A stretch of DNA of 21,184 nt from IMG/VR virus record IMGVR_UViG_3300042444_000709, positions 1 to 21,184 of that record; one strand, written 5' to 3'. Every line of letters begins with the position of its first letter. The stretch's first letter is position 1. The notes beneath the pieces were generated by a model. The model saw nothing but the letters and a program-made list of their open reading frames with translations, did not search any database and had not been told where the DNA came from. The stretch comes from a virus. Made by a program: the position numbers and the translations under genes. Shown here in pieces: positions 2,510-21,184 of this stretch.

Positions 2510-2880
2510 TTAAGCGTCATCCTTGCTGGGCAATTTGGAAGGGCATGAAGCAACGCTGCGACAATGCAAATCGCAAAGACTTCGCCTATTACGGCGGCCG
2601 AGGAATTGGCTACGACCCCAAGTGGTCAACGCTCGCCGGGTTCCTTCAAGACATGGGCGAGCGCCCATCTCTCAGCCACACGCTGGATCGCATCGATGTC
2701 AACGCTGGCTACAGCAAGGCGAACTGCCGCTGGGCCACGCGCAAAGAGCAATCACGCAACCAGCGCAACAACATCATCGTAGACGGCCGCCTCCTCGTTG
2801 AGCTGGCCGAAGAACAAAACGTCAGTCTGCGCGCCATGTATTCGCGCCATTACCGCGGAGGAAAACAATGTGGATACTAA
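2506..2880 (+). CDS. HNH-like small phage endonuclease with C-terminal HTH
   Basis: 124 aa from GTG 2506 (GTGA overlap). The pattern HPCWAIWKGMKQRCDN (5-20), YYGGRGI (28-34), an F/W-rich stretch, then TLDRIDVNAGYSKANCRWAT (59-78) is a signature I recall from a widespread phage family annotated as HNH or AP2-type endonucleases; the LDRID and NCRW blocks stand where catalytic and metal-binding residues lie. Residues 94-119 (RLLVELAEEQNVSLRAMYSRHYRGGK) look like an HTH that could guide DNA binding. The 3' end overlaps the methyltransferase start by 11 bases. It may be a free-standing homing nuclease; activity is not certain because a clear HNH histidine pair is not evident. Confidence 0.65.
   Translation: MIKRHPCWAIWKGMKQRCDNANRKDFAYYGGRGIGYDPKWSTLAGFLQDMGERPSLSHTLDRIDVNAGYSKANCRWATRKEQSRNQRNNIIVDGRLLVELAEEQNVSLRAMYSRHYRGGKQCGY
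2857..2872 (+). promoter_or_regulatory. Shared ribosome binding site for two overlapping starts
   Basis: GGAGGAAA at 2857-2864 precedes ATGTG at 2868-2872. The ATG (2868) opens the frame of the embedded repeat protein. The GTG (2870) opens the methyltransferase frame. Spacing is 5 nt to the ATG and 7 nt to the GTG, so a single ribosome site could serve either frame. It also lies inside the end of the HNH-like gene. Confidence 0.55.
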
Positions 2881-4451
2881 CACCATCAATCACGTCAGCC
2901 TTTGCAGCGGCTACGGGGGCATCGACCTCGGCCTCAAGCGAGCAATTGGCGAGCGCCTGCGCACAGTCGCTTTTGTGGAGGTCGAGTGCTTCGCCGCCTG
3001 CAACTTGGCAGCGAAGGCTGAAGCAAAACTCTTGGACAACGCACCTATCTGGAGCGATCTGCGAACCTTCCCTTGGGGAAAGTTTCACGGACTGGTGGAC
3101 ATCCTTTCTGGCGGCTATCCGTGCCAGCCATTCAGCGCCGCCGGCAAACGCCTCGGCGCCGAAGACCCAAGACACCTCTGGCCGCACATATCAGCCGGAA
3201 TTGCTGCAATGCGACCAGGTGCCTGTTTCTTTGAAAACGTCGAGGGACATATCAGCCTTGGGCTTCCCGACGTGCTGCAAGACTTGGCAGGAATGGGTTA
3301 CAGAACGACGTGGGGCATATTCAGCGCGTCTGAAGTTGGCGCGCCTCACCAGAGGAAAAGAGTCTTCATCTTGGCCCACGATCAGCGTCAACGAGTCGAA
3401 GAACTCGGTTGGCAAATCGCAGGAGCATCGCAATTCGATTCCGCTTGGAACGATGGCGGCGATGCAGTCTTGGCCGACACCGAACGCTCAAGTCTCGCAA
3501 GATGGCGAGTCGCCGGAGACATGGCTCAAGCGCAAGGAAGCGATGAAGGCCAAGGGCTACAACGGCAACGGATGCGGGACGCCGCTGACCATTGCGGTGC
3601 AACTCCATGGCCAAGCCGCCCCGGCGAGCAGCAGTTCGCTTGGGAGCCGCCAAGAGTTGTGGCCGACACCATCAGCGGACGGGGACTCTCGACCGGGAGC
3701 GAATGCCGATCCAGTGAAATGGCAGGAGATAGCCGATGCGAAGAAAGCGCAAGGCATCAACAAGCAGCTTTTCTTAACAACCAAGGTTGCGATGGAAGAG
3801 GCGAAGAAACAGGAACTCTGGTTGACACCAAAAGCCAACGAGTCGGACAGCGATCCGAACTTTGCGGCGAGGAATGCGGATCGCGGGGCGCATTGCCATG
3901 GGACGTTGAGCAGTCAGGCGAAGTCGGAGGAGTTTCCAACGCCTCGCACAACGGATTGGAAATCGACAGCGAATGCGCCATCCAACCCGCAGAGGGTCGA
4001 GGACGGAACGGCAACGCTGGGAGAGTTTGTTCACGCGAAGCAATGGGCAACGCCGAAAGCCAGCGACCCGCAGCACAGCGGGCCGAACATGAGGGACTCA
4101 GCGGGCAACTATGCGCTGCCAGCGCAGGTGACGAAATCATGGCTGACGCCCAAAGTTCCGAGCGGCGGATCACAAGCGGAGCGGACAACAGCAGGCGGCG
4201 GATTGCGGAAGTTGGAAGACCAGACGCAGACACCGACCGGCAAGCTCAACAGCCAATGGGTGACCCAGTTGATGGGACTGAGCTTGGGCTGGGTCTCGCC
4301 GAGTTGTCCGGCCTCAGTCATCAAGAACTGGCCGAGATTCGTGAGTGGATGGTCCGCTCTGACAATCGCACCGATGAGCTGCGACTCCTCGGCAATGGAG
4401 TTGTGCCTGCCACCGCAGAGCGAGCTTTCCGAGTTCTCGTTGGCGAGCTGA
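2868..4451 (+). CDS. Candidate overprinted protein with WPTP repeats, in an alternative frame of the methyltransferase
   Basis: 527 aa open from ATG 2868, two bases before the methyltransferase GTG, spanning nearly the whole gene in another frame. This product is not random: W-P-T-P-like motifs recur at 3372 (WPT), 3471, 3660, 3819 (WLTP), 3933 (FPTP), 4044 (WATP) and 4140 (WLTP). The stretches after the second and third align (W...A.KA.G.N......T..V). It ends with GKLNSQWVTQLMGLSLGWVS. I recall phage proteins with SLKTS, WPTP and LMGxPxGW motifs encoded with C5 methyltransferases, but that is memory, not a search. Translation is unproven; it may equally be a by-product of constraint on the methyltransferase. 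Confidence 0.4.
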   Translation: MWILTPSITSAFAAATGASTSASSEQLASACAQSLLWRSSASPPATWQRRLKQNSWTTHLSGAICEPSLGESFTDWWTSFLAAIRASHSAPPANASAPKTQDTSGRTYQPELLQCDQVPVSLKTSRDISALGFPTCCKTWQEWVTERRGAYSARLKLARLTRGKESSSWPTISVNESKNSVGKSQEHRNSIPLGTMAAMQSWPTPNAQVSQDGESPETWLKRKEAMKAKGYNGNGCGTPLTIAVQLHGQAAPASSSSLGSRQELWPTPSADGDSRPGANADPVKWQEIADAKKAQGINKQLFLTTKVAMEEAKKQELWLTPKANESDSDPNFAARNADRGAHCHGTLSSQAKSEEFPTPRTTDWKSTANAPSNPQRVEDGTATLGEFVHAKQWATPKASDPQHSGPNMRDSAGNYALPAQVTKSWLTPKVPSGGSQAERTTAGGGLRKLEDQTQTPTGKLNSQWVTQLMGLSLGWVSPSCPASVIKNWPRFVSGWSALTIAPMSCDSSAMELCLPPQSELSEFSLAS

Positions 4452-4468
4452 TGGAGCACCAGCCATGA
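2870..4468 (+). CDS. DNA (cytosine-5) methyltransferase
   Basis: Transfers a methyl group from S-adenosylmethionine to cytosine C5, presumably protecting phage DNA from host restriction. From GTG 2870 it is 532 aa. Motif I is SLCSGYGGIDLG (10-21). Motif IV is GGYPCQPFS with catalytic Cys85. Motif VI is FFENVEG with E122. Motif VIII is APHQRKRVF (158-166). Motif X is RLLGNGVVPATAERAF near 505-520. The region between VIII and X (about 170-500), where the target-recognition domain should lie, is long, polar and built around recurring VADT/VDT/SNA/GNA/ADA-type motifs. It is also open in another frame (see 2868-4451). An upstream start at 2798 would overlap the HNH-like gene far more, so GTG 2870 is preferred. 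Confidence 0.93.
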   Translation: MDTNTINHVSLCSGYGGIDLGLKRAIGERLRTVAFVEVECFAACNLAAKAEAKLLDNAPIWSDLRTFPWGKFHGLVDILSGGYPCQPFSAAGKRLGAEDPRHLWPHISAGIAAMRPGACFFENVEGHISLGLPDVLQDLAGMGYRTTWGIFSASEVGAPHQRKRVFILAHDQRQRVEELGWQIAGASQFDSAWNDGGDAVLADTERSSLARWRVAGDMAQAQGSDEGQGLQRQRMRDAADHCGATPWPSRPGEQQFAWEPPRVVADTISGRGLSTGSECRSSEMAGDSRCEESARHQQAAFLNNQGCDGRGEETGTLVDTKSQRVGQRSELCGEECGSRGALPWDVEQSGEVGGVSNASHNGLEIDSECAIQPAEGRGRNGNAGRVCSREAMGNAESQRPAAQRAEHEGLSGQLCAASAGDEIMADAQSSERRITSGADNSRRRIAEVGRPDADTDRQAQQPMGDPVDGTELGLGLAELSGLSHQELAEIREWMVRSDNRTDELRLLGNGVVPATAERAFRVLVGELMEHQP

Positions 4469-19075: not shown

Positions 19076-21184
19076 ATGATCAAAGCACCCGACCGCGACA
19101 AAATCTCCGAGATCCTCTCGGACATCGATGAAGCCGACGCCGATGGCAGCGGCTACGTCCAGCGCAAGCTCCGCAACTGGAACACCCGCTTCTGCATTTG
19201 GGCCGGCCAGACCGACGACGGCCGCAAACACCAAGAAGCCCTCGGCAAGCGCCCATTCCCTTGGGACAAGTCCCTTGATTCTCGCGTGCGCATGGCCGAC
19301 ACCATCGTCCGCGACCACGTTGCCATGCTGACAAACGCCTTCTTCAAGGCGCGCGTCCAAGTCCAGCCCGTCGAGTCCATGGACATCGACAAGCGCAGCG
19401 CCGCGGAGTCCGTCCTCAAGTGGCTCCTCTTTCAGCACGTCTTGGATGACCTCCGGCGCGAAGTGCAGCTCGCCGCCAACTTCCGCGAGACCTACGGCCT
19501 CGCCGTCATGGCCGTCGATTGGATCAAGACCACCCGCACCGAGATCAAGAGCTTCAGCATGGAAGACGCCATGGCCATGCTGCAGGAGTCCCAAGACCCC
19601 AACCTGCAAGCCCTCCTCGAGGTCGTCCTCGACCCCGAGCAAGAAGAACTCGCCGCCCAGCTCATGGGCGAAGTCATCCCAGAACTCGGCAGCACCGCCA
19701 AAGTCCGCGCCTTCCGCGAGAAAGGATTCGTCGAATGGGAGCAGCCCTACGTTTTTGAAAGCCGGCCCCAGTGGACCGCGCTTGAGCCATGGGAAGACAT
19801 CATCTTCCCCGCCCAGACCTACTCATTGCAGCGTGCCGCGTTCGTTGCCCGACGCGAGCTAATGACCGAACCGGAGTTGCGCGAACGTGCCGCTGTAGAG
19901 GGTTGGGACGACAAATGGGTCGAGCAAGTCGTCGAGAAGAAAGGCGACATCCGCCGCATCTCGCTGAACCTCCACCGCAGCGACCAGTTCCTCTACGACC
20001 ACCAGCGCGACATGATCGAGATCTGGCACGTCTACAGGAAGGAGCACGACGACCACACCAAAGCGATGCGCGTCACCCGCACCGTCCTCAGCTACCACGT
20101 CCCGGATCGCACCGCCGTCCACGACATCCTGCCCTACGCCCACGCCCTCTATCCCTTCGTCGAGCTGCCCCGCGAACGCGCCTCACGCCCCATCTTGGAA
20201 TCCCGCGGCGTGCCGGAGATCGTCCAGACCGCCCAGGAGGAAGTCAAAATCCAACGCGACATGCGAGGCGACCGCGCCAGCATCGTCACCTTGCCCCCGC
20301 TCAAAACGCCCGCTGCGCGCGGCAAGATGGACCTCATCATGGGACCGGGCGTCCAAATCCCTGAGCGCCGCCCCGGCGAGATCTCTTGGATGAACCCGCC
20401 GCAGCCCGACGCCGGCAGCATCGAAGTCGAGATGTCCATCCGCAACGACGTGGACAACTACTTCGGCCGCATCAGCGAAGCCGTCCCGCCGCAACGCTAC
20501 ATGCTGCACACCCAAGAGCTGGTCGATTCGTGGCTGCTCGACATGAAGCTCTGCCTCGTCCAGACGCTCGCCCTCTGCCAGCAGTATATGACCGCGGAAG
20601 AAGTCGCCCGCGTCACCGGCAACCCCAACCTCCCGCTTGTTGCCAGCCCCGCCGACATCCGCGGCCGCTTCGACGTGACCTGCGAGTTCGACGCCCGGTT
20701 GCTCGACTCCGAAGCCCTCGGCGCCAAATTAGACTACCTCGCCAAAGTCTTGGTTCCCTTGGACAGCTTCGGCGTCATCGACCGCGCTGGCCTCGTAAAA
20801 TATATGTTCCAGGCGGTTGATCCCAATCTCGCCGGAATCCTCGTCCAAGACATCGGCCAAGCCACAGCCGCCGAGCAAGAGGACGAGCAAGGCGCCTTCG
20901 CAAAAATCGCCGCAGGCACCGAACCGCCACTCAAAGAAGGCGGCCAAAACGCGCAGGTCCGCCTGCAAACCTTGCAGCAAATTATCCAGTCCAACCCCGC
21001 CGTCCAGCAGCGTTATCAGCAGGACGAAATCTTCCGCTCGATGATCGACGCAAGAGCACAAGCCTTCCAGTTCCAATTGCAACAGCAGCAAAACGCCGTA
21101 ATCGGCCGCACCGGCGCCCAGCCCGCGCTGCAAAAGCTCCAGCAAGACCAGCAACTCGGCATGACCGCAGCTCCTTCCGCTTAA
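19076..21184 (+). CDS. Portal protein
   Basis: 702 aa; the stop is the last three bases of the window. The N-terminal WDKSLDSRVRMADTIVRDHVAMLTNAFFKARVQVQPVES and middle WEDIIFPAQTYSLQRAAFVARRELMTEPELRERAAVEGW are typical of portal proteins. So is the DEFL-like core of helices (GPGVQIPERRPGEISWMNPPQPDAGSIEVEMSIRNDVDNYFG) leading to a long helical C-terminus. The last 90 residues are Gln-rich (QQRYQQ, FQFQLQQQQN), resembling barrel or tail-contact regions. It forms the dodecameric channel through which the terminase packs DNA. Confidence 0.85.
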   Translation: MIKAPDRDKISEILSDIDEADADGSGYVQRKLRNWNTRFCIWAGQTDDGRKHQEALGKRPFPWDKSLDSRVRMADTIVRDHVAMLTNAFFKARVQVQPVESMDIDKRSAAESVLKWLLFQHVLDDLRREVQLAANFRETYGLAVMAVDWIKTTRTEIKSFSMEDAMAMLQESQDPNLQALLEVVLDPEQEELAAQLMGEVIPELGSTAKVRAFREKGFVEWEQPYVFESRPQWTALEPWEDIIFPAQTYSLQRAAFVARRELMTEPELRERAAVEGWDDKWVEQVVEKKGDIRRISLNLHRSDQFLYDHQRDMIEIWHVYRKEHDDHTKAMRVTRTVLSYHVPDRTAVHDILPYAHALYPFVELPRERASRPILESRGVPEIVQTAQEEVKIQRDMRGDRASIVTLPPLKTPAARGKMDLIMGPGVQIPERRPGEISWMNPPQPDAGSIEVEMSIRNDVDNYFGRISEAVPPQRYMLHTQELVDSWLLDMKLCLVQTLALCQQYMTAEEVARVTGNPNLPLVASPADIRGRFDVTCEFDARLLDSEALGAKLDYLAKVLVPLDSFGVIDRAGLVKYMFQAVDPNLAGILVQDIGQATAAEQEDEQGAFAKIAAGTEPPLKEGGQNAQVRLQTLQQIIQSNPAVQQRYQQDEIFRSMIDARAQAFQFQLQQQQNAVIGRTGAQPALQKLQQDQQLGMTAAPSA

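Follow-up and report, generated by a model that had tools for sequence, protein, structure and literature searches.

In the multispecific C5 methyltransferases of Bacillus phages (SPbeta, phi3T, and rho11), the region from motif VIII to motif IX contains several short recognition cassettes, all in a single frame. C5 methyltransferases whose motifs are divided between two chains are also known, and for one of these, M.EcoHK31I, Lee et al. are said to have found in 1995 that the large subunit gene also contains, in another reading frame, the coding sequence of the small subunit. The large subunit of M.EcoHK31I (YGGCCR) carries motifs I to VIII and X, the small subunit carries motif IX, and the predicted recognition domain has been placed in the large subunit (PMC3404938). 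In M.AquI, the catalytic and recognition parts reside on two polypeptides (PMC3404938).

Here we analyze IMG/VR virus record IMGVR_UViG_3300042444_000709, a stretch of 21,184 bases that we refer to as the window. We conclude, with a probability of roughly 0.87, that one stretch of this DNA encodes a two-subunit C5 methyltransferase, in which an alpha chain (frame A) carries motifs I to VIII and X and a beta chain (frame B) carries target recognition and motif IX. No earlier report of such a dual-frame layout in phages was found in the literature that we searched.

RESULTS

Gene setting

The window contains a set of tailed-phage genes, including those for a DnaB-like helicase, a T7-type SSB, an exonuclease, the terminase large subunit, and the major capsid protein. 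An HNH endonuclease-like gene (2506 to 2880; phrog_3377, 3.4e-38) lies directly upstream of the methyltransferase and has the look of a free-standing endonuclease. The overlap of its stop codon with the twin start region described below suggests translational coupling. Among the window proteins scanned, none was identified as a restriction partner of the methyltransferase, and we therefore infer that its likely use is to shield phage DNA from host restriction. Dual-frame genes with twin starts as in the window also occur in Geminisphaera colitermitum TAV2 and in a Verrucomicrobia MAG (L134 and L135), an arrangement that hints at a verrucomicrobial host for this group of phages.

Methyltransferase motifs are divided between two overlapping frames

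All coordinates below are those of the window, and all features lie on the plus strand. Frame A (2870 to 4468) encodes the 532-aa alpha chain from a GTG start. Alpha is a C5 methyltransferase that matched phrog_363 at 1.9e-53 and PF00145 at 1.8e-31, the latter over residues 7 to 183 only. It carries motif I (LCSGYGGID; 2900 to 2926), motif IV (GGYPCQPFS; 3110 to 3136), motif VI (FENV; 3230 to 3241), motif VIII (QRKRVFILA; 3350 to 3376), and motif X (LLGNGVVPATA; 4385 to 4417), and thus has the catalytic motifs I, IV, VI, and VIII that are expected of a PF00145 enzyme. A preliminary description of this DNA, made without database searches, held that the methyltransferase frame has all C5 motifs. 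The motif positions contradict this on one point: motif IX is absent from frame A of the window gene and is found only in frame B, as LNSQWVTQLMGLSLGW at 4245 to 4292, just upstream of motif X. Ordinary C5 methyltransferases combine motifs IX and X with the recognition domain in a single chain; here, motif IX lies only in frame B and motif X only in frame A. The first reading had missed this location of motif IX, which makes frame B the source of an essential piece of the enzyme.

Frame B (2868 to 4451; +1 relative to frame A, with its first codon position at the second position of frame A) encodes the 527-aa beta chain of WPTP modules and motif IX from an ATG start. As first described, it stays open for 527 codons, from the ATG at 2868 to a stop codon ending at 4451. 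Only 1 of 2,000 synonymous shuffles that kept the A protein gave a frame B open for 527 codons or more (mean longest, 230 codons). The bases of motif VI read LKTS in frame B, and motif VIII overlaps the first frame B WPT at 3372. Seven W/F-x-T-P modules, which we infer to be target-recognition cassettes and which have a B-type substitution pattern, extend from 3372 to 4244. Their W/F-x-T-P/I motifs fall exactly at 3372, 3471, 3660, 3819, 3933, 4044, and 4140, as originally noted, and the contention that they are not noise is borne out: seven such motifs appeared in none of 3,000 shuffles keeping frame A (mean, 0.5; maximum, 4). Two details need correction. The sequence TGGCCGACACC, said to occur exactly twice, does so within the gene but has three copies in the window, the third at 19293, and the LMG..GW motif thought to end beta sits 52 residues before the end of frame B.

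Database searches placed beta in phrog_1008 (“DNA methyltransferase”; 1.2e-18), a family matched by the betas of all 43 relatives scanned. Alpha residues 499 to 524, the motif X stretch, match the C-terminal end of this same family, and phrog_1008 therefore probably includes betas of the split type described below. A search of NCBIfam and Pfam with beta returned no family, and a PDB sequence search returned no useful match. AlphaFold2 models were of low confidence both for the window beta alone (pLDDT, 47.8; pTM, 0.26) and for the beta of the shortest relative, L068 (pLDDT, 49.6; pTM, 0.21). A comparison of the beta profile with a classical streptococcal phage methyltransferase paired the two motif IX stretches (KLNPRWVETLMGLP with KLTPRECWRLQGFP) where expected, at a weak E value of 0.17.

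Twin start codons are conserved

The two frames begin at overlapping start codons, ATGTG (2868 to 2872), in which ATG belongs to frame B and GTG to frame A. A GGAGG (2857 to 2861; sequence cGGAGGaaaacaATGTGgat) precedes them and is the putative ribosome-binding site of both, a role that we infer. The arrangement is conserved: in every one of 58 relatives, a B-frame ATG precedes the A start by 2, 5, 8, or 11 nt, compared with 2 of 58 for the control frame, and ATGTG itself recurs in Acidovorax phage Alfacinha3. We propose that alpha and beta would be translated as separate polypeptides off one mRNA from the adjacent starts at 2868 (frame B) and 2870 (frame A). Frame A would yield the catalytic subunit, with motifs I to VIII (cofactor binding, the catalytic PCQ, and ENV) and X, and frame B would yield the WPTP-type recognition modules with motif IX after them; these chains would then assemble into one enzyme for which neither frame alone would suffice. 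Translation of both frames, chain assembly, and enzyme activity are inferences from sequence, without protein-level or activity data.

The order of these elements (frame A up to motif VIII, frame B for the modules and motif IX, and frame A again for motif X) is that of an ordinary single-chain C5 methyltransferase, and single-chain relatives do exist. A single polypeptide could thus be imagined to arise by two programmed frameshifts, one from A to B after motif VIII and a second, returning to A, between motifs IX and X. We consider this unlikely. Motif VIII in frame A and the first module in frame B overlap at 3372 to 3376, which leaves a single shifted chain unable to contain the two; every product would require two efficient shifts; and neither the openness of frame B upstream nor the conserved ATG ahead of the alpha start would be explained. 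The bases common to motif VIII and the first module, and a frame B that is open upstream of them with its own ATG, lead us to favor two chains.

Motif layout among relatives

The first 171 residues of frame A served as the only query for 80 relatives, whose choice was therefore blind to the module region, and genes were filtered by the motif I pattern C[SA]GYGGI. Motif IX was found in frame A of none of the 80. Motif IX lies in frame B and motif X in frame A in 71 of them (69 by pattern, L052 and L070 by inspection), and both motifs lie in frame B in L037 and L067. In L072, L091, L097, and L102, a one-base shift after motif VIII displaces both frames, alpha and beta, together; sequencing error, phase variation, or slippage could explain it. 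In L072, L097, and L102, the shift falls in a C-rich stretch (TPPP) just after motif VIII; in L091, it falls further downstream. The remaining three, L078, L079, and L100, have an HNH endonuclease open reading frame (ORF) in frame B between an IX-like motif and motif X, and frame A continues across it without a stop for about 218 codons. This ORF carries an HNH-like HHKDRNPxNN and zinc-finger CxxC motifs and is similar to the hidden HNH described for the ShiLan methylase (PMC11855218). That paper describes hidden HNH ORFs within phage methylases; neither motif IX nor target recognition turned up in a term search of its text. Paenibacillus polymyxa plasmid pAP1 (L117; 1495 to 2343 and 2416 to 2562, in L117 numbering) has two frame B copies of the motif IX segment, LNPTWVECLMGFPLDW and LNPAWVECLMGFPLGW; the second copy follows a stop codon and is a recent duplication or a decaying copy.

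The dual-frame layout is readable in a wide range of isolates: phage C75C1 and phages Sc-Yong805-2 (Synechococcus), Bloom (Paenibacillus), R9.1 (Lacticaseibacillus), Lc-Nu (Lactobacillus), SEN5 and SI7 (Salmonella), SBP2phi2 (Stenotrophomonas), ZQ26 (Vibrio), and Salado (Klebsiella). In Bloom, both frames are annotated as DNA cytosine methyltransferase, and the beta frame is closed upstream, so its start must fall inside alpha. For Sc-Yong805-2 (L031) and Alfacinha3 (L123), the annotation has only the beta frame and misses the catalytic one.

Two further layouts occur outside the overlap. Nyxis, Samora, and Andrew have split, two-gene forms with motifs IX and X in beta; together with L037 and L067, they indicate that either chain may carry motif X. 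Mycobacterium phage WillSterrel and Propionibacterium phage PFR2 have single-chain forms, in which LLPTP modules, LNPAFPEWMMGWPTGW or LSARFVEWMMGLPDG, and motif X all lie within one methyltransferase frame. The beta profile matched WillSterrel with an E value of 1.9e-6 and aligned with PFR2 at motif IX. Within the WillSterrel gene, the phrog_1008 match begins in frame B and continues in frame A, a pattern that a fusion of the modules to alpha through a frame change would produce. The best evidence that the modules and LNPxWVxxLMG represent a methyltransferase recognition region and motif IX comes from these single-chain forms.

Both frames are under purifying selection

For stop counts, we compared 59 nonredundant relatives with shuffles synonymous in frame A; the relatives share ancestry, so these expectations overstate independence. 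Frame B contains no stop codons in any of the 59, whereas about 320 are expected from shuffling frame A (160 from the start to ENV, 45 from ENV to motif VIII, 87 from VIII to IX, and 30 from IX to the end). The third frame has the expected number. From the start to ENV, a conservative test allowing one draw per alignment column still gave P = 10^-4.5. In the reverse comparison, with frame B held fixed over the modules, frame A also contained no stops, against 316 expected.

The fastest-changing codon position indicates which frame is constrained, and it switches along the gene from A3 before ENV to A1 (equal to B3) over the modules and back to A3 after motif IX. The A1/A2/A3 rates are 0.084/0.065/0.251 before ENV (A-type), 0.255/0.155/0.156 over the modules (B-type), and 0.183/0.107/0.326 after motif IX (A-type). 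The constrained frame thus changes from A to B over the modules and then back to A at motif X. Within module families (580 module pairs), the B1/B2/B3 rates are 0.065/0.033/0.258, a strong suppression of change at the nonsynonymous positions of frame B. Just before motif X, where frame B has motif IX, fourfold sites of frame A change at only 0.005 to 0.048. Upstream of ENV, some 10-codon blocks of such sites are frozen (0.027 and 0.076) and others are free (0.26 to 0.37); the N terminus of beta is therefore constrained in patches, for which an RNA-level constraint could be partly responsible. Both frames are, in short, open and under purifying selection across many divergent relatives.

The preliminary description left two outcomes standing, a dual-coding repeat that might be the recognition domain or an artefact of the kind that fills databases with spurious proteins, and named as grounds for refutation either stop codons in frame B of most homologues with no reduction of its nonsynonymous change or the absence of both standalone WPTP genes and peptides. 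The stop counts, the substitution pattern, and the modules found outside the overlap, in single-chain and split methyltransferases, support the first outcome and reject the second. The idea that frame B is a noncoding shadow ORF, spared stop codons by codon bias and by a conserved A protein, has some initial appeal at 58 to 63% GC, where a +1 frame is stop-poor and shuffling predicts only six stops in the window gene. It nevertheless fails to account for the missing stops across the 59 relatives, for B-type substitution over the modules, or for seven WPTP motifs that never arise from frame A alone; it also leaves A without a motif IX, whereas the single-chain relatives have modules and motif IX in frame with the methyltransferase motifs. 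We regard it as nearly untenable, refuted by the stop, substitution, and motif tests, short of protein-level data.

The converse possibility is that frame A is the shadow over the modules, where only frame B would be functional and alpha would end after motif VIII. Consistent with this, amino acids of frame A are nearly free over the modules, where A1 changes fastest. We find it very hard to sustain, however, given the stops missing from frame A with frame B fixed, the A-constrained motif X beyond the modules, and a frame that remains open even across the HNH ORFs inserted in L078, L079, and L100. Frame A is also constrained within the module region itself: the patch WPSRPGEQQFAWEPPR (3608 to 3655), of the form WPSRPGEQQ(F/Y)xWEPPR, is kept over 16 residues in 56 of 59 relatives, with A-type A1/A2/A3 rates of 0.074/0.082/0.179 and 0.035/0.096/0.190.

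Modules recur in different contexts

The betas of the 59 genes contain 253 W-x-T-P units, 1 to 9 per gene, which fall into 73 clusters; this count is approximate because the shadow of the alpha patch partly joins some clusters (A, C, D, and G). A single module unit recurs with differing neighbors and at differing positions among genes; cluster L, for example, has five left and five right neighbors in five genes. In 264 of 1,128 gene pairs, a near-identical module is held in common, yet no more than half of the modules are shared. Because each module lies between motifs VIII and IX, we infer it to be a target-recognition cassette.

DISCUSSION

The gene has the motif split of the M.EcoHK31I type (PMC3404938), with motifs I to VIII and X in alpha and motif IX in beta. 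Its beta occupies an alternative frame of the alpha gene, as is said of the M.EcoHK31I small subunit, and this +1 frame is open and under selection. The gene differs from M.EcoHK31I in that beta spans all of alpha, begins at a twin start codon, is phage borne, and, across the family, carries 1 to 9 shuffled modules; its inferred recognition domain lies in beta rather than in the large subunit (PMC3404938). The window does not show an M.AquI-type division, with motifs IX and X on the small subunit: its motif X is in alpha, and the overlap of the two frames is full length. Such a division is seen in L037 and L067 and in the split relatives Nyxis, Samora, and Andrew. The methyltransferases of WillSterrel and PFR2 have PTP modules, a motif IX of the form LNPxFxEWMMG, and motif X in common with the window, all in one frame. 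What is already known, then, is the motif split of M.EcoHK31I; what is new is the full-length overlap, the twin starts, and a beta built of shuffled cassettes.

The cassettes of beta occupy the same position as those of the multispecific Bacillus-phage enzymes, a likeness that we treat only as a lead, and those enzymes use one frame. Shuffled cassettes are observed here; a multispecific methyltransferase would in addition need each cassette to have its own target, and no specificity data exist for them. Somewhat short of an even chance, in our judgment, is the further hypothesis that beta is a combinatorial, dual-coded specificity subunit made of exchangeable cassettes, one target each, which phages shuffle, gain, and lose by recombination while keeping both frames open. 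If this is true, each cassette is selected as a protein in one frame and as a stop-free linker in the other.

The two-subunit reading turns a puzzling and poorly annotated group of phage ORFs (the SLKTS/WPTP proteins, phrog_1008), of which annotators often retain one frame of two, into the recognition subunit of a known class of enzyme. It also provides a long same-strand overlap in which each frame shows evidence of selection. Three layouts occur naturally (single chain, split, and dual coded) and offer a direct test of how an overprinted gene originates, and the shuffled cassettes are a ready series with which to test how recognition specificity is encoded.
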